Positions 8,853-22,075 of a DNA stretch of 64,000 nucleotides are shown piece by piece; positions within the stretch are counted from its first letter, which is position 1; each line of letters starts with the position of its first letter. The DNA is from Photobacterium sp. CCB-ST2H9 (GTDB taxonomy: Bacteria; Pseudomonadota; Gammaproteobacteria; Enterobacterales; Vibrionaceae): the NCBI RefSeq assembly GCF_023151555.2, contig NZ_CP100425.1, positions 2,852,001 to 2,916,000 of the forward strand, read 5' to 3'. The position numbers and the translations under genes are program-made. A model generated the notes under the pieces. The model did no database searches, was not told the DNA's origin, and saw nothing but the letters and a program-made list of their open reading frames with translations.

Positions 8853-9686
8853 TTATTTTGCCTGTTCCAGCGTCATGCGACAGATCGCCAGTACATCCTG
8901 CGTTTCACGCGTATCATGAACCCGAATAATCTGAGCTCCCTTCATTGCGGCAATGGATGCACAAGCCAAGCTCCCGGACAACGCTTCTGCAGGCGATTTA
9001 TTTAATTGTTTACAGATCATGGACTTTCTGGACATCCCAACCAGCAGTGGTAATCCAAACCGGTGAAATTTTTCCAAATGTGCCAGCAACTGATAGTTAT
9101 GTTCCAGGCTTTTACCAAAGCCAAATCCCGGATCCAAGATCAGCTGTTCGCGATGGATACCAGCCGCTTCGCAGGCCTGAATTCGCTCTGCAAGAAAATC
9201 TTCCACATCTGCGAACAGATCATCATAGTGTGGTTGCTGCTGCATTGTACGCGGTTGCCCCTGCATATGCATTAAGCAAATTGGTACCCCTGCTTTCGCT
9301 GCAGCTGCCATGGCACCAGGCTCACGCAGTGCACGGATATCATTGATCAGATCAGCGCCCGCTTTTACCGACTCCGTCATCACTTCAGCTTTACTGGTAT
9401 CGACTGAGATCCAGCAATCAAAACGCTGACGGATGGCTTCTACTACAGGCACCACACGTTCGAGCTCTTCCTGCACAGAAACTTCAGCAGCTCCCGGACG
9501 CGTCGATTCACCCCCAATATCAATAAAACTGGTTCCGACTGCCAGCATCTCTTCCACATGACGCAGTGCACTGTCTAATTGATTAAACTGGCCACCATCA
9601 GAAAAAGAATCCGGCGTGAAGTTCAGTATACCCATGGTATGCGGGTAAGAAAGATCCAGTATTTTCTCTTTGCTTTTCAGTAACAA
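8853..9686 (-). CDS. folP: Dihydropteroate synthase
   Basis: FolP joins p-aminobenzoate to dihydropterin pyrophosphate in folate synthesis and is the sulfonamide target. Motifs: MGILNFTPDSFSDGG at the N-terminus, GGESTRPGAAEVS, LDPGFGFGKS and LLVGMSRKSM. The 277-residue length is normal. The start codon is TTG (9684-9686), with AGGAG nine bases upstream; no in-frame ATG gives a sensible N-terminus. A terminator separates it from ftsH, so a promoter in 9690-9765 is expected. Confidence 0.95.
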   Translation of the reverse strand: MLLKSKEKILDLSYPHTMGILNFTPDSFSDGGQFNQLDSALRHVEEMLAVGTSFIDIGGESTRPGAAEVSVQEELERVVPVVEAIRQRFDCWISVDTSKAEVMTESVKAGADLINDIRALREPGAMAAAAKAGVPICLMHMQGQPRTMQQQPHYDDLFADVEDFLAERIQACEAAGIHREQLILDPGFGFGKSLEHNYQLLAHLEKFHRFGLPLLVGMSRKSMICKQLNKSPAEALSGSLACASIAAMKGAQIIRVHDTRETQDVLAICRMTLEQAK

Positions 9687-9766
9687 GGTTCATCACTCCT
9701 GACAGAATAAGCCCGGCGGCAACAGCACGGGCTCACAGATTTCCATAGACATTGTGGCGCAGAAAC

Positions 9767-9794
9767 AAAAAACCCCGAGTTACCCCGGGGTTTT
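9767..9794 (-). terminator. Terminator downstream of ftsH
   Basis: AAAACCCCG/CGGGGTTTT stem with an eight-base loop; the minus-strand transcript ends in TTTTTT. It directly follows the ftsH stop and separates rlmE-ftsH from folP-glmM. Confidence 0.85.
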
Positions 9795-9811
9795 GGACTC
9801 ACCGTCAGACA

Positions 9812-11776
9812 TTATGCCTGCGGTTTATCATTTTCTTCACTGTGATGCGGCTGTACCTGCTCAGGTTTCTCAGCTGGTTTGTCAGCATCTTTAAAGTCAA
9901 CACTTGCTGGTTTCTCGCTTTCCAGCGTATCAGCTTTCAGTGTGTCGTCTTTATCACCCCAGCCTTTGGGCGCACGAATCTCAGACTTACGTCCCATCAG
10001 ATCATCCAGCTGGCCTGCATCAATGGTTTCATATTTCATCAATGCATCTTTCATTGAATGAAGAATATCCATGTTGCCGACCAGAATCTCTCTGGCACGC
10101 TCATAGTTACGATCGATAATGGCACGCACTTCTTCATCAATGGCACGTGCCGTATCATCAGACATGTGCTTGGTCTTGGTCACAGAACGACCCAGGAAAA
10201 CTTCGCCTTCATCTTCTGCATACAGCAGCGGACCCAGTTTTTCTGAGAAGCCCCACTGCGTCACCATCTTACGTGCAATGTCTGTTGCTCGCTCGATATC
10301 GTTTGACGCACCCGTTGACACTTTCTCTACCCCGTAGATCAGTTCTTCGGCAAGACGGCCACCGTACAGGCTGGAAATCATAGACTCCAGATATTCTTTC
10401 GAGTGGCTGACACGATCCTGCTCAGGCAGGTACATGGTCACACCCAACGCACGGCCGCGCGGAATGATCGATACCTTATAAACCGGGTCATGATCCGGAA
10501 CCAGACGACCAATAATGGCATGACCTGCTTCATGGTAAGCCGTTGATTCTTTCTGTTCTTCAGACATCACCATCGATTTACGCTCTGCGCCCATCATGAT
10601 TTTGTCTTTCGCCAGTTCGAATTCCACCATTGATACTGTACGTTTGTTACCACGTGCAGCAAACAATGCAGCTTCGTTCACCAGGTTTGCCAGATCAGCA
10701 CCAGAGAAGCCAGGTGTACCACGGGCAATCAGAGACGGTTCAACATCACCATCCAGTGGCACTTTACGCATATGCACTTTCAGGATTTGCTCACGGCCAC
10801 GGACATCCGGGAGACCCACAACGACCTGACGGTCAAAACGGCCAGGACGCAACAGTGCCGGGTCCAGAACATCAGGACGGTTCGTTGCAGCGATCACGAT
10901 GATACCTTCGTGGCCTTCGAAACCATCCATTTCAACCAGCATCTGGTTCAGGGTCTGTTCACGTTCATCGTGACCACCACCCACACCGGCACCACGCTGA
11001 CGACCTACGGCATCAATCTCATCGATGAAGATAATACAAGGCGCCGCTTTCTTCGCCTGATCAAACATGTCACGGACACGGGATGCACCCACACCGACAA
11101 ACATTTCAACGAAGTCAGAACCGGAGATGGTAAAGAAAGGCACTTTCGCTTCACCTGCGATGGCTTTCGCCAACAGGGTTTTACCTGTACCCGGAGGACC
11201 AACCATCAGAACACCTGTCGGAATTTTACCGCCCAGTTTCTGGAAACGACTTGGATCACGCAGGTAATCGACCAGCTCTTTCACGTCTTCTTTGGCTTCA
11301 TCACAGCCAGCAACGTCGTTGAAGGTCGTTTTAATTTGATCTTCACTCATCATGCGCGCTTTGGATTTACCGAACGACATGGCGCCTTTGCCACCGCCGC
11401 CCTGCATCTGGCGCATAAAGAATATCCATACCCCGATCAGCAACAGCATCGGGAACCATGAAATAAAGATAGAAGCCAGCAGACTTGGTTCTTCCGGTGG
11501 TGTCCCAACCACTTTCACATTTGCATTGATCAAGTCGTCCAGCAATTTCTGGTCGTTCAGGACAGGCAAGTAAGTCACATAACGGGTGTTATCACGCTTG
11601 AACACCGTGATCTCACGATCATTGAATCGTACTTCCCTAATCTGATCCTGACCGATTTCCCGGACAAAAGTCGTATAGTCGACTTGACGGCCAGCACTAT
11701 CTCCCGGACCGAAGCTCTGAAAAACAGACATCAGCACCACGGCGATGACTAACCACAAAATCAAGTTTTTTGCCAT
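9812..11776 (-). CDS. ftsH: ATP-dependent zinc metalloprotease FtsH
   Basis: FtsH is the hexameric inner-membrane AAA protease that degrades misassembled membrane proteins and regulators such as LpxC. Domains in order: N-terminal membrane helix, periplasmic domain, second helix near residues 100-120, AAA domain with GPPGTGKT at 193-200 and [13 protein letters not shown], then the M41 protease with HEAGH. The Gln/Glu/Lys-rich tail is variable in the family. I start at ATG 11774-11776 (MAKNLILWL); a TTG three codons upstream also has a GAGG in front and the same ambiguity exists in E. coli. Follows rlmE by 50 bases. Confidence 0.97.
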
Positions 11777-15363: not shown

Positions 15364-15909
15364 TCAGAAAGGCGGTTCACCGGATTCCGGTAACGGCACA
15401 TCAAATGAGAACACCACGGCAGAAATCATACGGTACATGCCACAGGCAATCACTAAATCCAGCAACCCTTTCACACCGATTTCTTCAATCAGTGCCTGCT
15501 GTGTTTTCTCTGCAATACTTCGTTGATACACCACATCCTGAGCAACCTGCCAGACATAAAGATAAACAGGTTTCATCTCAGCTGTCGCCACATCGCCTTC
15601 CAGGATCTGCTGAATCACATGGCCGGGTAATCCGGCACGCTCTGCGGGCGCAATATGCTTTTCCCACACGAACGGTGCTCCCAGACAACGTGCCGTGGCA
15701 AGTATGCCCAACTCCCGGATATCACCGGACAGTTCACTTTGATAGCGAACATAGGTTCCAAGCACTCCCAGATGCTGCGCCAGAGCCGGATGATTCATTA
15801 AAGTTCGGTACATTCCGGATAATCCGTCCCGGGGGCCAATCAGAGTATCGTAGATAGCCTTTCCCTGTGCATCCAGATCAGCTCTTTCTATCAGCGGTAG
15901 CTTCGCCAT
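15364..15909 (-). CDS. AhpD/carboxymuconolactone decarboxylase-fold protein
   Basis: A 181-residue protein of the CMD/AhpD-like superfamily (PF02627-type). The core helix pair ELGILATARCLGAPFVWEKHIAPAERAG fits the family, but the redox CxxC of AhpD is absent; only one Cys is in that helix, so peroxidase-partner activity by disulfide chemistry is unlikely from sequence alone. Start ATG 15907-15909 is preceded by GGAGAACAAC. Last gene of the five-gene accessory unit, 41 bases after the ThDP enzyme. Substrate unknown; a ring-opening lactone decarboxylase or a structural role are both possible. Confidence 0.75.
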   Translation of the reverse strand: MAKLPLIERADLDAQGKAIYDTLIGPRDGLSGMYRTLMNHPALAQHLGVLGTYVRYQSELSGDIRELGILATARCLGAPFVWEKHIAPAERAGLPGHVIQQILEGDVATAEMKPVYLYVWQVAQDVVYQRSIAEKTQQALIEEIGVKGLLDLVIACGMYRMISAVVFSFDVPLPESGEPPF

Positions 15910-15950
15910 GTTGTTCTCCGTTTCCTGCGAAACAAATGTCGGGGCAAATA

Positions 15951-17741
15951 TCAGGCTTCCGCCCAATCAGGATGGTCCAGTTCCTGCCGCCACGGGTTGA
16001 CGGGCGTCGGAATGTTCGGGTCGCACCGCGCATCAATCACGAAAGGCCCTTGGGCTGCAAAAGCCTGCTCAAAGGCATTTGCCAGTTCCCCCGGGTGTTC
16101 AACCACAATGCCTTCGCCCCCTAATGAGCGGGAAAATGCCGCCCAGTCGTGCGTACTCAGGGATGTCAGTTCCTTTGCATTAGCCGTTTCAGCCCGGAGA
16201 AAAACGTTCCCCAAAGCACTGTTATTGATCACCAGAACTATCAATGGCAGCTGATGACGGGCTGCCGTCTGAATTTCTATCCCATTCATCAGCATGCAGC
16301 CATCCCCCGTGATCACAACACACGGATGGTCCGGATTGGCAACCTTGGCTCCAACACCTGCCGGAATCGCCCACCCCATGGGGGCAAGCGCCGTCGCGGT
16401 CAGATACTGTCTTGGACCATGTGACTGCCAGTAATGTCCGGCAAATGCCCGGTGGGCACCGGAGTCACCAATGATCACAGTATCTTCCGGCGCGACTTTC
16501 TGGAGCTCAGCGATCACCCGGGCCGGGTTCATGGGGCTCGCGTCACTGGTTAAATATTCCGGTTCATAAAAGCGGGGCTGAGAGACAATGGATGTCAGCC
16601 ACTGATGACGTTGCTGATTCATTTCCCGCAGTGGCAGCAGCCGTGTTTCCTGTTCTTTCGCCAGCAGCCATTTTAAAACAGCGGTCACATCCCCCTGAAC
16701 CGGCACATCGACCGGAAAGTTCTTTCCAAACATGCTGATATCGAGATCAACCTGATAGATCCCGGCCTCTGGCTGCAACCCTTGATCCCAGCGCATGGTA
16801 TCCCGCTGATTCATGCTCGAACCCAGCACGAGCAGCAATTGGTTCCCCTCCGCCGGTTGGGCGGAGGCTTCCGAGGCATGCTGATGCAGCAATGCCAGTG
16901 TCGAATGCCGCGTTCCTGAATAACCAAACACCCCCAGGGATAACGGATGATTTTCCGGAAACACCCCTTTGGCTTTCAGCGTGGTGGCAACCGGGATCTG
17001 ATACCTTTCTGCAAACTGGATGAGCGCCTGAGTCGCTTCCGACCGGACGGCGCCGCTGCCCACTAAAATCGTGATATTCGCCATGCCTGCCTGACTCGCC
17101 TGAATCAATCCCTGACAGAGCATTTCGGCCCCGGCCAAGTCCAGAGCCCGGGGTGTACGGGTCGCTTCTTGCAAAGCTGCGACCGGATGGGCCTGAGTGT
17201 CGATATCCTGGGTCTGAATTTGTTTCGGAAAACTCAGACTCACGGGTTTGAACTCCTGCCCCAGCATGGTTCTGAGCGCTCGGTCCAGCAAATGCGGTAC
17301 CATCGGTGCTTCCGGGACTTTCATCGCCATTTCCGTGACCGAACTCAGCATCCGGACATCATTTAATCCGGCTTCACTGGCATCCTGAAAACCGCCCCGG
17401 CCACTCCATTCGGTCGGCACTTCACCGGCCAGCACCAGCACAGGCGACTCATCGGTGCAGGCCGCTGCCAGAGGGCCAATCATATTGGCCGTCCCCGGAC
17501 CGCCAATCCCCATACACACGCCAAACTGGCCACTGGCTCTGGCATAACCATCAGCCATATAAGCAGCACCGGCTTCACTCGCTGCCACGATGGCCTTCAC
17601 ATCCTCTTTGCCCGTCCCAAACTGATTCAGGAACGGGTCAATCACTCCACCAGGTACCATAAAGACATGGTCGACCCCATTCGCCCGGATCGTATTGAGG
17701 ACATACTTTGCGACGGGGATTTTCTGCTGTTCGTTTTGCAT
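15951..17741 (-). CDS. Thiamine-diphosphate enzyme, acetolactate-synthase-like
   Basis: A 596-residue ThDP-dependent enzyme of the acetolactate synthase/benzoylformate decarboxylase superfamily. The N-terminal Pyr domain has the catalytic Glu at residue 56 (AASEAGAAYMADGYAR), a central Rossmann domain follows, and the C-terminal PP domain has the ThDP/Mg motif GDG at 479-481 with NN at 506-507. It is unlikely to be the housekeeping IlvB/IlvI: no small subunit gene is adjacent, and the neighbours are oxidases. A role in decarboxylating or carboligating a 2-oxo acid made by the upstream amine oxidase is inference. The ATG has GGAGG five bases upstream, 10 bases after the DyP stop. Confidence 0.85.
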   Translation of the reverse strand: MQNEQQKIPVAKYVLNTIRANGVDHVFMVPGGVIDPFLNQFGTGKEDVKAIVAASEAGAAYMADGYARASGQFGVCMGIGGPGTANMIGPLAAACTDESPVLVLAGEVPTEWSGRGGFQDASEAGLNDVRMLSSVTEMAMKVPEAPMVPHLLDRALRTMLGQEFKPVSLSFPKQIQTQDIDTQAHPVAALQEATRTPRALDLAGAEMLCQGLIQASQAGMANITILVGSGAVRSEATQALIQFAERYQIPVATTLKAKGVFPENHPLSLGVFGYSGTRHSTLALLHQHASEASAQPAEGNQLLLVLGSSMNQRDTMRWDQGLQPEAGIYQVDLDISMFGKNFPVDVPVQGDVTAVLKWLLAKEQETRLLPLREMNQQRHQWLTSIVSQPRFYEPEYLTSDASPMNPARVIAELQKVAPEDTVIIGDSGAHRAFAGHYWQSHGPRQYLTATALAPMGWAIPAGVGAKVANPDHPCVVITGDGCMLMNGIEIQTAARHQLPLIVLVINNSALGNVFLRAETANAKELTSLSTHDWAAFSRSLGGEGIVVEHPGELANAFEQAFAAQGPFVIDARCDPNIPTPVNPWRQELDHPDWAEA

Positions 17742-17751
17742 CTGGCCTCCG

Positions 17752-19203
17752 TCACACCGGTAAGTTTTTCAGAAAATGAAGACTGGGCATAAAGAAGTAT
17801 TCGCCCCCCTTCATCCGGACAAACCCGGAAAAACTGAAGGAAACCTGTTCTGCTGTCGGGCTTCCCCAACCTTTTGACCAGGATTGCGGTTTCGGGGACT
17901 CATTCTCTTTCAGTTGTCCGACTAAAGGGTCCAATCCCACGTCGCCATGCAGAAAATCTTCGTTATTGCACCAGGTGTGCTGCATGAAAATAAACTGATC
18001 GACAATACTGGCCTGAAAACTCAGGAACAGCAGACCGGCCTCGGTCCACTCCTGCGACGGTTGCAACTCAGCCTCACCGAAACTGATGCCCCTGCGAACA
18101 ATGCGGCGGCTCCGCTCAATGGTGGGTGGCGAATTGAACTGGCGCACCGTATCGCCTCTGGGGTTGGTTTTTCTGACATGAGCATGCAGCGGGCACTTCA
18201 GCCCACCAGCATCATCATTAAAGTTGAAATTATTAAACAGATTGGTCCAGCCGTCTCCGGACTGCTCGCTGATCGGCGTCCCATCCTGAAATCGCCCGAC
18301 ACACAGGGCACCGGCATATTTCGCCGAAATGGTCCGGCCGGTATTCTCAGACAACGTATTGGCAAGCATATCCGCCCGCTGCCAGAACCCTTTGATATTT
18401 TGCTGCAACTTCCGGTACACAACGTAGGTACCAAAACTGGCGTGATCCCCGCCCGGGTCCGGCACCATCACCAGGTTCAGCGGCGCACTGGGATCATTGT
18501 TGCGGTACCCGCCATTGCGGAATTCTTCCGTGAGCTCGGAAAAAAGAAACTTAGGATTACTCACGCCATCGGTAAAACCAAAATGCTCAATCACTTGCTG
18601 CTTGTCATTTCGCATGACATGCCCGTGCTGCACCACAACGATATGCCCGATGCCATTGAGGGAGTCTTTCATTTCCCGCACTAAATCGTTCAGGGTCTTT
18701 TCAACATCATCCGACTGTCCGCTGAGCGCAAAAATCAGCATTCCGTCCATGTCCTGAGAAAATGCCGGTTCCCACTGAGACAGATCATCATTGAGCGGAT
18801 TGGCCGTCGGCTTGTGATTACCGCGCGGCGAGGTGTCATAAGACTGGTCTAAGTCTTTCATTCCGGCGAGAAACGCTGAATCATCCGGCCATTGCTCGCG
18901 GGGAATGCCAAGCTTGCGATACCCGGTCGCGCTCAGCATCAGGTTCACGAACAGATGATCCTGCTTGCCAAATTGTTTGAATGCCTGATGCTGCCGCCCC
19001 TGTTCAAGCATTGACGTCACTTTTTCCGACATCTGCCGTACCCAGCGCCGGTTTGCAACTTCATCCTGCCCCAGGCAGAAAAAAACATGGCGCGCATAAT
19101 CCCGGCCATGCCCTTTCAGAATATTGCCCTGTAAATTAGCGAAAACGGTCTGAAAATTCGGATCGTCTAAGTCAATATTGGTCTGATTTAAATTCACTGA
19201 CAT
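17752..19203 (-). CDS. Dyp-type heme peroxidase
   Basis: A 483-residue DyP-type peroxidase. Diagnostic features: the GxxDG motif as GFTDG at 209-213 with the distal Asp212, the proximal heme ligand His342 in AHVRKTNPRG, and the downstream arginine cluster RSRRIVRRG (364-372). The length and inserts resemble the larger fungal-like/class V members rather than the compact encapsulin-associated type. No Tat or Sec signal is seen, so it is probably cytoplasmic. Such enzymes oxidise dyes, phenolics or other donors with hydrogen peroxide. It follows an intrinsic terminator (19259-19289), so it may be attenuated relative to the first two cluster genes. Confidence 0.92.
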   Translation of the reverse strand: MSVNLNQTNIDLDDPNFQTVFANLQGNILKGHGRDYARHVFFCLGQDEVANRRWVRQMSEKVTSMLEQGRQHQAFKQFGKQDHLFVNLMLSATGYRKLGIPREQWPDDSAFLAGMKDLDQSYDTSPRGNHKPTANPLNDDLSQWEPAFSQDMDGMLIFALSGQSDDVEKTLNDLVREMKDSLNGIGHIVVVQHGHVMRNDKQQVIEHFGFTDGVSNPKFLFSELTEEFRNGGYRNNDPSAPLNLVMVPDPGGDHASFGTYVVYRKLQQNIKGFWQRADMLANTLSENTGRTISAKYAGALCVGRFQDGTPISEQSGDGWTNLFNNFNFNDDAGGLKCPLHAHVRKTNPRGDTVRQFNSPPTIERSRRIVRRGISFGEAELQPSQEWTEAGLLFLSFQASIVDQFIFMQHTWCNNEDFLHGDVGLDPLVGQLKENESPKPQSWSKGWGSPTAEQVSFSFSGFVRMKGGEYFFMPSLHFLKNLPV

Positions 19204-19258
19204 TGCTCATCTCCCCGTATGTCTGATACCACTCAGCTTTCGCCAAATCAGAGACAGC

Positions 19259-19289
19259 AAAAAAGAAGCCGATGCGGTCCACATCGGCT
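19259..19289 (-). terminator. Terminator inside the accessory cluster
   Basis: AGCCGATG/CATCGGCT 8-bp stem, seven-base loop, followed on the minus strand by TC and six U. It lies just after the CMD-fold gene stop (19304) and before DyP (19203), so the cluster is probably expressed with a step-down or from a second promoter. Confidence 0.75.
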
Positions 19290-19303
19290 GGGTATCAACA
19301 CAA

Positions 19304-19888
19304 TCACTCCGGATGCGCGCTGAACGTATCCGGTTCAGGTAAGGTCGGATTGCCCGGCGCGGCCTGAATGTTTCCGATATTCAGCAAACTGGCAACCATG
19401 GCGTAATAACCGGCAGTTAAGGTGATTTCAGTGATTTCCTGAGCGCTGAATCTGGCCTGAATGCCCCCGAACAGCGCATCACTGACCCGTTTACGCACCA
19501 GCAAATGCCGAACATAGGTCACCAAATCCCGCTCGTTTTGACTGACTTCAGGTTCATTGTCCGGTAAGCGCCGGTTGCGAATCATCTCAATCACCTGCGG
19601 CGATACGCCTGCTTTCCGGGCAAATTTTTCATGAAATCCCCATTCAAACTGACAGGCGTTTTCACTCAGTGCCGTCAGAATGACCAACTCTTTCACCCCG
19701 GGGTTCAGACAGGAATCAAAGCGCAAAAATGCCCCGAGATCGGCCACCAGTTCTGCCGCCTTCGGTGAATTTAAAAGCAAAGCAAACACGCCGGAGACAT
19801 GCCCTCTACTGGCCGCAATATGCTCATAGGCTGCCAGCGTTTCGGCGGATAAGCCTGCCGAATCATCGAGATAAGGAAGTCGTGTCAT
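19304..19888 (-). CDS. Second AhpD/carboxymuconolactone decarboxylase-fold protein
   Basis: A 194-residue CMD-like protein with the family core VKELVILTALSENACQFEWGFHEKFARKAG. As in the other cluster member there is no CxxC, only a single Cys preceding the conserved ExxxH (EWGFH). It is paralogous in fold to the protein at 15364-15909 but divergent in sequence. The ATG follows AAGGTGGTGG and the gene begins nine bases after the amine oxidase stop, so the two are very likely cotranscribed. Activity unknown. Confidence 0.78.
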   Translation of the reverse strand: MTRLPYLDDSAGLSAETLAAYEHIAASRGHVSGVFALLLNSPKAAELVADLGAFLRFDSCLNPGVKELVILTALSENACQFEWGFHEKFARKAGVSPQVIEMIRNRRLPDNEPEVSQNERDLVTYVRHLLVRKRVSDALFGGIQARFSAQEITEITLTAGYYAMVASLLNIGNIQAAPGNPTLPEPDTFSAHPE

Positions 19889-19897
19889 ACCACCACC

Positions 19898-21712
19898 TTA
19901 AACATGCTTCAGTGTCGGCAGCTCATTTTCATTGACCAGCAATGCTGCATTGACTGCTGATTCAATAGCCCCCTCAATCCAGGCATGCTTGAGTGAGGCA
20001 TGCTCTCCGGCAAAATGAAGCCGCGCTTTACCGGTTTCCGTGCTCGGCCATTCCGACCGGATAATGGCTTTATGAAGCAAATTCAGCTGACCCGGATAGA
20101 AAATTGCCGCTTCACCAAAAGCGTAGGGATCATTCATCCAGCTCACGGTCGCAGCGCCGACGATATTGTCCTGGTCATCTCTGTATTTATTCGGATCAAA
20201 CACGCAGAGATCCCGGATTTTCTGCTGGGCCGCTTCCCTGATGGCGTAATCTGCGCCCGGTTCATGATCCGCATGGACGATCGCGACATTATTGAGGGCG
20301 TAACAGTAGCGTTCGTAATCAGACATGGAATCCCACTTCCGCGCATCGTCCGCCCAGGAATAACTCGCCAGCATCACACCGCCTTTGCTGGAGCCCATCC
20401 GCTCACTCGGGTAATACATGAAACGGTTGGGCAAATCGGTCACGGAGCCGCCGCCATAAATATCATTTCTGGTTTCCCAGAATCGCTCCCTGAACTCAAG
20501 CAGCACTTTCGTGGCGGCATCGTAATGGAGTTCACGCACCGCTTTTCGTTTCTCCTGACTGATTTCCGGCCAGACCTGAACCATGCGGAAACTGGAAAAC
20601 GGAATGGTGACGATGGCTTCATCCCAACTGCGCTCAGACAGCAGCCTGGCAATGGCGGTATCCTGCTCGAGACGGGATTCAATATCGTGCGACACTTCGG
20701 TTCTAATTCTGACTTTTCCGGTTGTCTCACACAGATACAGTTCATTGACGGTCTGATTGAGGTAAGTGACATCGTCCAGGTTTTCTTTCTCATAAAATGC
20801 CTGGGTAAATTTATCGGTACCGCCTTTAATCAACCAGAAAGCCGTGTCGGGACGGATAATGGCCAGTTCAATAAAACTCTGGATGAAGGAATAGGACATT
20901 CGGGATTCAAGATTCTCTATGACGCCAATCATCTCCAGCGCATTTTCCGACAAGTGTTCCTCCCCGCTGAGTTCGACAATTGCCTCTTTCAGGAACCGCC
21001 GCATGGAATACTCGCCGTATTGCTCAATAATTTTGGGCCATGCTGTTTTCGGGTCGGCCTGAACTTGATTCACCAGATCGCCAATGGCTTTTTCCAGTAA
21101 TTCAGATGCCGTTGAGTATTTTTCCCGCGCCTTCAGATCGTAATTCAACAATTCATTGATATCGGAACCTTCATGTTCATAATTTTTCTGCAAAACATGA
21201 CGACGATTCACATGAACGAGGTTATTTCCGGTTGCTGCAAGATCAGACAAATCAACATTGCCCTGTGCATCCCGGTTCGGATGCTGAATTTTTTCGGACA
21301 ACGCATCTTTTCTCGAAACACTTTTATTCAGGAAAAGTTGTTTCTCAACGCCCGTGTAATCAATCAGATACTGCACCAGCTTGTGCTTGTCCGGAATACG
21401 CATGGCTCCGGCCTCAGCAGACAGATGATCATCTTCAAAATAACGTTTCTGAGGTGAGTTCCGAAAGGTTCGGATCCGGCCGCCAACCCGGGTATTGGCC
21501 TCGACAATCGTGACTTTGTGGCCTGCTTTGCGTAACAGCGCAGCGGAGACCATTCCCGCAATCCCACAACCGATAATCAGGATATCTTTCGGCTCGGTCT
21601 GACTTTCCGGTAATCCATTTTTCAGACAGGCCATATAAGATTGAGCAACTTCATCCTGCTCATAAGGTAACAGACCGTGAAATTCATCCTCTAAGAAGCT
21701 GACCTCTGACAT
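19898..21712 (-). CDS. Flavin amine oxidase, L-amino-acid-oxidase-like
   Basis: A 604-residue FAD-dependent amine oxidase. After about 40 residues comes the dinucleotide-binding fold IIGCGIAGMVSAALLRKAG with the ribose-binding Glu and RVGGRIRT, then the block AEAGAMRIP typical of L-amino acid oxidases, and the C-terminal FAD contact FAGEHASLKHAWIEGAIESA. The family oxidises amino acids or amines to the imino/oxo product with release of ammonia and hydrogen peroxide. No signal peptide. Start chosen at ATG 21710-21712 because AAGGGATGG precedes it at proper distance; an ATG two codons upstream abuts the GGG. First gene of the accessory cluster. Substrate cannot be told from sequence. Confidence 0.87.
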   Translation of the reverse strand: MSEVSFLEDEFHGLLPYEQDEVAQSYMACLKNGLPESQTEPKDILIIGCGIAGMVSAALLRKAGHKVTIVEANTRVGGRIRTFRNSPQKRYFEDDHLSAEAGAMRIPDKHKLVQYLIDYTGVEKQLFLNKSVSRKDALSEKIQHPNRDAQGNVDLSDLAATGNNLVHVNRRHVLQKNYEHEGSDINELLNYDLKAREKYSTASELLEKAIGDLVNQVQADPKTAWPKIIEQYGEYSMRRFLKEAIVELSGEEHLSENALEMIGVIENLESRMSYSFIQSFIELAIIRPDTAFWLIKGGTDKFTQAFYEKENLDDVTYLNQTVNELYLCETTGKVRIRTEVSHDIESRLEQDTAIARLLSERSWDEAIVTIPFSSFRMVQVWPEISQEKRKAVRELHYDAATKVLLEFRERFWETRNDIYGGGSVTDLPNRFMYYPSERMGSSKGGVMLASYSWADDARKWDSMSDYERYCYALNNVAIVHADHEPGADYAIREAAQQKIRDLCVFDPNKYRDDQDNIVGAATVSWMNDPYAFGEAAIFYPGQLNLLHKAIIRSEWPSTETGKARLHFAGEHASLKHAWIEGAIESAVNAALLVNENELPTLKHV

Positions 21713-22004
21713 AACCATCCCTTATTTTTGTATGTGTTGCCTGCCTCTCCCCTCAATGATGAAACAAGGCGGCACAGTGCAAGACGGACTGACTTCTGAA
21801 AAGCCAGCCGGAGAAAACTGCTTACTGTGTTCAAAACTAGGTCAGATTGATTCAGATACAAAAAAAGGCGGCATGGAGCAAAGAAAGTCTAACCTCCCTC
21901 TCATTTACATTGTGGAACGATGCAAATATTCGGTTTTGACTATTAATACGATCATGACTGAACAAGATTGATCAGTGCCTGATTCCGGGGGTGATCCTGG
22001 CGTC
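21713..22004. other. Gene-free leader/promoter region of the accessory cluster
   Basis: Between the amine oxidase start and the carB terminator. It must contain the cluster promoter on the minus strand; the best hexamers I see (TTGCAC with TCATTG, 17-base spacing, near 21760-21790) are weak. A short plus-strand open frame here lacks a ribosome site and family resemblance. No clear operator was recognised. Confidence 0.4.
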
Positions 22005-22034
22005 AAAAAAAATAGCCCCGACTTATGCCGGGGC
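22005..22034 (-). terminator. Terminator of the car operon
   Basis: GCCCCG/CGGGGC stem with an eight-base loop, followed on the minus strand by ATTTTTTTT. It lies about 40 bases beyond the carB stop. Confidence 0.85.
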
Positions 22035-22075
22035 CATTCTCAGTCTGTCATCCAATGCAACACTGCATCTTCTGA

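Follow-up and report, generated by a model that had tools for sequence, protein, structure and literature searches.

The five-gene block and its products

The window, meaning here the whole stretch of 64,000 nucleotides analysed from Photobacterium sp. CCB-ST2H9, contains between carB and dacB a run of five minus-strand genes; their order had been noted in a first-pass annotation of the DNA and is confirmed as LAAO-CMD1-DyP-ThDP-CMD2. The features of the region are the following:

21719..22075, minus strand: gap of 357 bases upstream of LAAO, with a GC stem and T-run after carB seen by eye
19898..21718, minus strand: LAAO-like flavoprotein oxidase (LAAO) of 606 aa, closest to L-glutamate oxidase
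19304..19888, minus strand: CMD-fold protein 1 (CMD1), 194 aa; PF02627 38 bits against a cut-off of 23; PDB 3lvy and 6e8l
19204..19303, minus strand: CMD1-DyP gap of 100 bases, with a terminator-like hairpin of 10 pairs, then a T-run
17752..19203, minus strand: DyP-type peroxidase, 483 aa, class V (former C) from its nearest structures
15951..17741, minus strand: ThDP-dependent enzyme, 596 aa, related to acetolactate synthase and to an "HKA synthase"
15364..15909, minus strand: CMD-fold protein 2 (CMD2), 181 aa from an ATG start, with no CxxC

The block (0.525) and the window (0.517) are similar in GC content. Its members come from large known families and the gene set is new in its combination; no description of it was found in the literature searched, which lay mostly outside subscription journals.

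The oxidase is recognized by PF01593 with 167.9 bits against a cut-off of 19.8 (E 6e-49), and the earlier assignment to the amino-acid oxidases holds in a refined form, the best PDB match being the L-glutamate oxidase (LGOX) 7e0c with 307 bits; the Streptomyces LGOX structures (7e0c and 8jpw) are the closest solved relatives. The LGOX substrate-site positions R124, R305, Y562, and W653 are kept in the window LAAO as R107, R273, Y453, and W580, whereas H312 is changed to Q280 and an LGOX insertion of about 75 residues is missing, the alignment jumping from 437 to 513 of the LGOX chain at residue 418. Because of the Arg at the R305 position, the substrate is probably an L-amino acid with an anionic side chain, Glu-like; the R305E variant of LGOX accepts L-arginine, according to the available part of the report (PMC10694123). 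An Arg occupies this position in 122/122 aligned LAAOs (118 of the best 120 of 1057 matches, plus four) and, being invariant in these nearest relatives, is a trait of the group that does not separate cluster members from the others. No signal peptide was seen by eye on LAAO.

The peroxidase is identified by TIGR01413 (106.9 against a cut-off of 100.5), and its best PDB matches, nearly full length, are 5c2i (Alr1585, presumably the protein also named AnaPX; 306 bits) and 4g2c (DyP2; 214 bits). D212, which we take to be the aspartate of the GxxDG motif, G213, and H342, presumably the proximal His, are invariant in 20 aligned sequences, and no Tat signal was seen by eye. The window DyP carries PF21105; a search of its own genome with PF04261 (Dyp_perox_N) found only another DyP (C1:857668). 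AnaPX and DyP2 are tabulated as class V DyPs, with dyes and Mn as substrates, in the available part of PMC8197335, which does not use the name Alr1585; the window DyP, in contrast, has a gene context that names candidate partners.

The ThDP-dependent enzyme appears nearest to acetolactate and HKA synthases, i.e., carboligases, HKA presumably standing for alpha-hydroxy-beta-keto acid. It stays under the cut-offs of the acetolactate synthase equivalogs (TIGR00118, 319.7 against 538.35; NF004919, 324.2 against 866), and its match to BbmA, a "ThDP-dependent HKA synthase" (8x3x, 8xod), has AHAS and glyoxylate carboligase within 2 Z units. E56, which we take to be catalytic, is invariant in 61 sequences. 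No paper on BbmA/CsmA or on an "HKA synthase" was found in the literature searched, mostly outside subscription journals, and PMC12247030 does not mention them.

CMD1 and CMD2 both belong to the CMD/AhpD superfamily by fold or domain. The hallmark of AhpD peroxidases is a CxxC motif, which is absent from 18/18 CMD1 and CMD2 sequences; peroxide reduction by either protein is therefore unlikely, and their candidacy as AhpD peroxidases was given up. Both keep E66, W82, and H85 (CMD2 numbering). CMD1 has one Cys, C79, located just before the FEWxxH-like stretch and present in 9/9 orthologues, which is a candidate for thiol chemistry without CxxC, while in CMD2 Cys75 occurs in 4/9 sequences and Cys156 in 9/9. 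The Bmp8 debrominase (6ohi) is only 10% identical to CMD2.

Linkage, chromosomal sites and transcription signals

In a sample of 296 Vibrionaceae genomes, the source genome included, LAAO (matches at E <= 1e-50) is present in seven. DyP matches occur in nine, and the seven with at least 66% identity are the same LAAO-bearing genomes; the other two (G665 and G684) have DyPs of only 36–37% identity and are both outside the LAAO list. The five genes are kept together as a unit: the order LAAO-CMD1-DyP-ThDP-CMD2 is intact in all seven genomes, and the scattering in close relatives, which had been named beforehand as speaking against one co-inherited unit, was not seen. The five genes also agree in their pairwise distance matrices, with correlations (r) of 0.735–0.964 (permutation p <= 0.002), calculated on 8 clusters for LAAO and 11 for the other genes with the shared species history left in. 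One LAAO copy, in G489 (L031:7489-9299), has a frame break with one internal TGA and is matched by two overlapping tblastn pieces, possibly a decaying oxidase or an assembly error.

A class-wide DyP search of 369 genomes gave, besides the window, five remote DyPs (30–36% identity). For the ThDP enzyme, 398 genomes of the phylum were searched at E <= 1e-100, which yielded a single other match (41%, G1233), with DyP, LAAO, and CMD matches absent from the 17.7 kb around it. A profile search of viral contigs with the ThDP enzyme found no relative.

carB and dacB flank the block in the window, in P. galatheae (genome G019, locus L007), and in G489 (L031), while no carB or dacB match was found within about 20 kb of it in P. 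sanctipauli (G021, L009), Vibrio sp. Of7-15 (G433, L008), G004 (L032), and G033 (L033). In the genus, 38 of the 40 genomes have a dacB match, and 30 dacB loci were examined; the block adjoins dacB in three, carB lies within about 1.5 kb with no block in eight, and the remaining 19 have neither in the flank. Empty sites occur in the nearest block-free relatives G011, G472, and G032 (dacB 76%), with gaps of 114, 99, and 98 bases between the ends of carB and dacB; even in G004 and G033 the two genes are adjacent (147 and 181 bases), although the block sits elsewhere in the genome. Because of these empty sites, an ancestral origin of the block between dacB and carB was rejected. From its occurrence as a unit at different chromosomal sites, the block seems to move horizontally.

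The hairpin in the CMD1-DyP gap has its stem at 19289-19267, with 10 pairs followed by a T-run, in a region where 11 terminator-like sites were counted against 6.8 +- 3.0 in shuffles. This terminator-like element implies that the run may not be one transcript, and the genes may be expressed as two transcripts or in a graded manner. With changed stem bases, the hairpin is kept in six of 11 clusters; a T-run comes after it solely at the carB-dacB site, in three clusters (the window, L007, and L031), and L008, L032, and L033 have the hairpin without a T-run. In the same gap of the five other clusters weaker or different stems were seen by eye. Promoter-like sites numbered 2 against 5.1 in shuffles, none of them upstream of LAAO, and the terminator scan listed no stem in 21719..22075 despite the GC stem seen there by eye.

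Oxidase exchange and recurrence in other lineages

In a sample of 196 genomes from the family of Thalassomonas sp. RHCl1 (G686), DyP matches were found in nine, four of which are close (65–66%) and five remote (30–40%). The core CMD1-DyP-ThDP-CMD2 is kept in all four genomes with the close DyP. In G782 it belongs to a longer run on one strand, in the order ferritin-like PF12902, LodA, LodB, LAAO, CMD1, DyP, ThDP, and CMD2, whereas LAAO is missing from the otherwise unchanged run of G686, G700, and G748; thus, LodA and LodB accompany LAAO in one of the four clusters and occur without it in three. No true LAAO was found in the whole genome of G686, where the best match reached 24.6 bits. The LodA-type gene has both the LodA_N and LodA_C Pfam domains, and its Cys565 aligns with the cofactor Cys of LodA, which is Cys 516 in the available text of PMC4417212; the same text had already pointed out that in fungi PF12902 genes occur close to lodA. 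With respect to the LodA lysine oxidase and the GoxA glycine oxidase, the Thalassomonas gene remains under both equivalog cut-offs (NF038172, 272.6 against 600; NF038173, 187.8 against 750), and the type is absent from the window. The predicted oxidase is hence the exchangeable part of the set, with a putative quinoprotein of LodA type beside or replacing the flavin-dependent LAAO, and the relatives offer a natural experiment on the requirements of the pathway.

A comparable association is found on Streptomyces plasmids, in which 10 records have DyP, LAAO, and ThDP matches at adjoining coordinates; several of them are near-identical, so they represent few independent events. The triad DyP-LAAO-ThDP is directly adjacent in the three records that were opened (L026, L027, and L111), and, compared with the window proteins, its DyP is 25% identical, its LAAO 35% (longest piece), and its ThDP 23%; for this ThDP protein the best NCBIfam model is the indolepyruvate decarboxylase TIGR03393 (203 bits, under the cut-off of 946). 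The combination of a predicted H2O2-making amino-acid oxidase with DyP and ThDP proteins is thus recurrent in an unrelated lineage, although LAAO relatives also stand alone. In particular, all three plasmid loci opened (S. cattleyicolor, Peribacillus, and Streptomyces NBC_00060) lack DyP and ThDP matches in the roughly 13 kb covered, and for the LAAO of Vibrio nigripulchritudo (P0013, 70%) no DyP of that species is among the best 120 of 2959 matches.

The pairing was also evaluated on 34 LAAO, 50 DyP, and 40 ThDP rows from the 120 matches listed for each, contigs of equal size being presumed to be the same contig. DyP-ThDP pairs numbered 13, LAAO-DyP pairs 6, and LAAO-ThDP pairs 4, where chance would give means of 0.07, 0.07, and 0.04, respectively; the two members of one LAAO-DyP pair (size 4415) have different sources, and this pair could be a coincidence. 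Seven DyP-ThDP pairs have just 49–58% identity to the window proteins, which extends this pairing past the Vibrionaceae block.

The plasmid DyPs of Gloeothece (39%) and Nonomuraea (32%) have no LAAO or ThDP partner by tblastn, barring a short 29% stretch in a Gloeothece GMC gene; for the Nostoc plasmid DyP (32%) no such partner is in its incomplete gene table, and the ThDP relatives on plasmids of Aquicella, Pandoraea, and Serratia have annotated neighbours of other kinds. DyP and ThDP relatives exist in Solirubrobacteraceae and Spartinivicinus too, and Tenacibaculum also has a relative. On the Gloeothece plasmid (L016:4187-13249), the neighbours of DyP are annotated as a galactose-oxidase-like protein, a GMC oxidoreductase, and a ferritin-like protein of PF12902, a family that is also present in the Thalassomonas clusters. 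On a symbiotic plasmid of Paraburkholderia (L025:11624-13719), a CMD-family gene directly precedes a ThDP enzyme that is 42% identical to that of the window, and the pair adjoins genes of a 4-hydroxy-2-oxovalerate aldolase and an acylating aldehyde dehydrogenase.

A putative pathway and its alternatives

What is shown is the linkage; the following chemistry we infer from the relationships and kept residues of the proteins. LAAO would convert an L-amino acid to a 2-oxo acid, NH3, and H2O2; the ThDP enzyme would decarboxylate the 2-oxo acid and ligate the acyl unit to an acceptor, forming an acyloin or an alpha-hydroxy-beta-keto acid; one or both CMD proteins would process this product by decarboxylation or tautomerisation, with CMD1 possibly using its Cys for thiol chemistry; and DyP would spend the H2O2 in the oxidation of the product, thereby also removing peroxide. 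In Thalassomonas, oxidation would be carried out by the LodA/LodB pair, either together with LAAO or in its place. The block would then encode a horizontally moving and probably cytoplasmic small-molecule pathway, a reading that is preferred here in a tentative way. The first-pass annotation had already suggested that the oxidase feeds both oxo acid and peroxide to its partners; co-inheritance as a unit and the pairing of an amino-acid oxidase with DyP and ThDP in an unrelated lineage support this idea in part, and the LAAO relatives without DyP or ThDP count against a strict coupling. Q280 and the missing insertion of LAAO, the hairpin within the run, and the scores of the LodA-type gene under both cut-offs also weigh against the pathway reading. 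In a broader and more speculative form, the block could exemplify a general, undescribed biosynthetic logic, in which an interchangeable flavin- or quinone-dependent amino-acid oxidase supplies a ThDP enzyme with its 2-oxo-acid donor and a product-finishing DyP with H2O2, assembled independently in Gammaproteobacteria and in Streptomyces and spread horizontally.

The genes could instead serve plain amino-acid catabolism, with deamination by LAAO, decarboxylation of the oxo acid by the ThDP enzyme, and a DyP that merely scavenges the H2O2 of the oxidase. This is rather unlikely, even if it agrees with the best model of the Streptomyces ThDP protein, which is of a 2-oxo-acid decarboxylase family, and with the reported precedent of Streptomyces, in which the DyP DtpA uses the H2O2 of the copper oxidase GlxA and is thought to protect the hyphal tip (available part of PMC4736821). 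The latter is likewise a partnership of a DyP with an oxidase; however, GlxA-DtpA is Tat-exported, the oxidase is of the carbohydrate/aldehyde type, and that part of the source mentions no ThDP or CMD partner, unlike the window set. Moreover, the closest relatives of the ThDP enzyme in the window appear to be carboligases (acetolactate/HKA synthases), and a scavenger role leaves two conserved CMD proteins unexplained.

An improbable alternative is a LodA-like system that releases H2O2 as an antimicrobial or in biofilms, with DyP for self-protection. LodA and AlpP, which act in biofilms, were initially reported as antimicrobial proteins (available text of PMC4417212), and a LodA-type gene is present in the Thalassomonas clusters, but inspection by eye showed no export signal on either LAAO or DyP, and such a system would leave the ThDP and CMD genes unexplained.

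No more probable than the latter is a pathway consisting of DyP and ThDP, with or without CMD, to which the oxidase would be an exchangeable source of H2O2 and the 2-oxo acid waste. The core stays in the three Thalassomonas clusters from which LAAO is missing, the Gloeothece DyP lies beside genes annotated as oxidases of other types (galactose-oxidase-like and GMC), and the 13 DyP-ThDP pairs lend slight weight, two having an LAAO row on an equal-sized contig, three being LAAO-carrying Photobacterium, and eight lacking LAAO among the 34 rows compared. On the other hand, LAAO is retained in 7/7 Vibrionaceae blocks, with one copy frame-broken, and the sole replacement seen belongs to another amino-acid-oxidase family, which suggests that the oxo acid matters as well. 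Finally, a chance collection of unrelated neighbours, conceivable since all five genes are from large families with many roles, is hardly credible, being already contradicted by the same order at different sites, by the replacement with another oxidase, and by the recurrence in Streptomyces.

For the peroxidase, the preferred pathway reading would give a poorly understood class a testable job: a class-V-like DyP is co-inherited with a putative peroxide maker and a putative co-product enzyme, and being tied in this way to both, its substrate can be sought directly. Among the remote DyPs a different association was observed, in which two small genes (218–231 aa, one starting MSNIAGK) come before a DyP of 533–541 aa as a separate conserved set; the small genes are alike by eye in four genomes:

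L034:8974-11942, three-gene remote DyP set
L063:6508-9516, three-gene remote DyP set
L065:8968-11978, three-gene remote DyP set
L067:7506-10516, three-gene remote DyP set

In L034, neither small protein has a Pfam match over the cut-off. In L066:1-10407, the surroundings of a further remote DyP (8974-10407) include genes that resemble, by eye only, contractile tail sheath and baseplate proteins.
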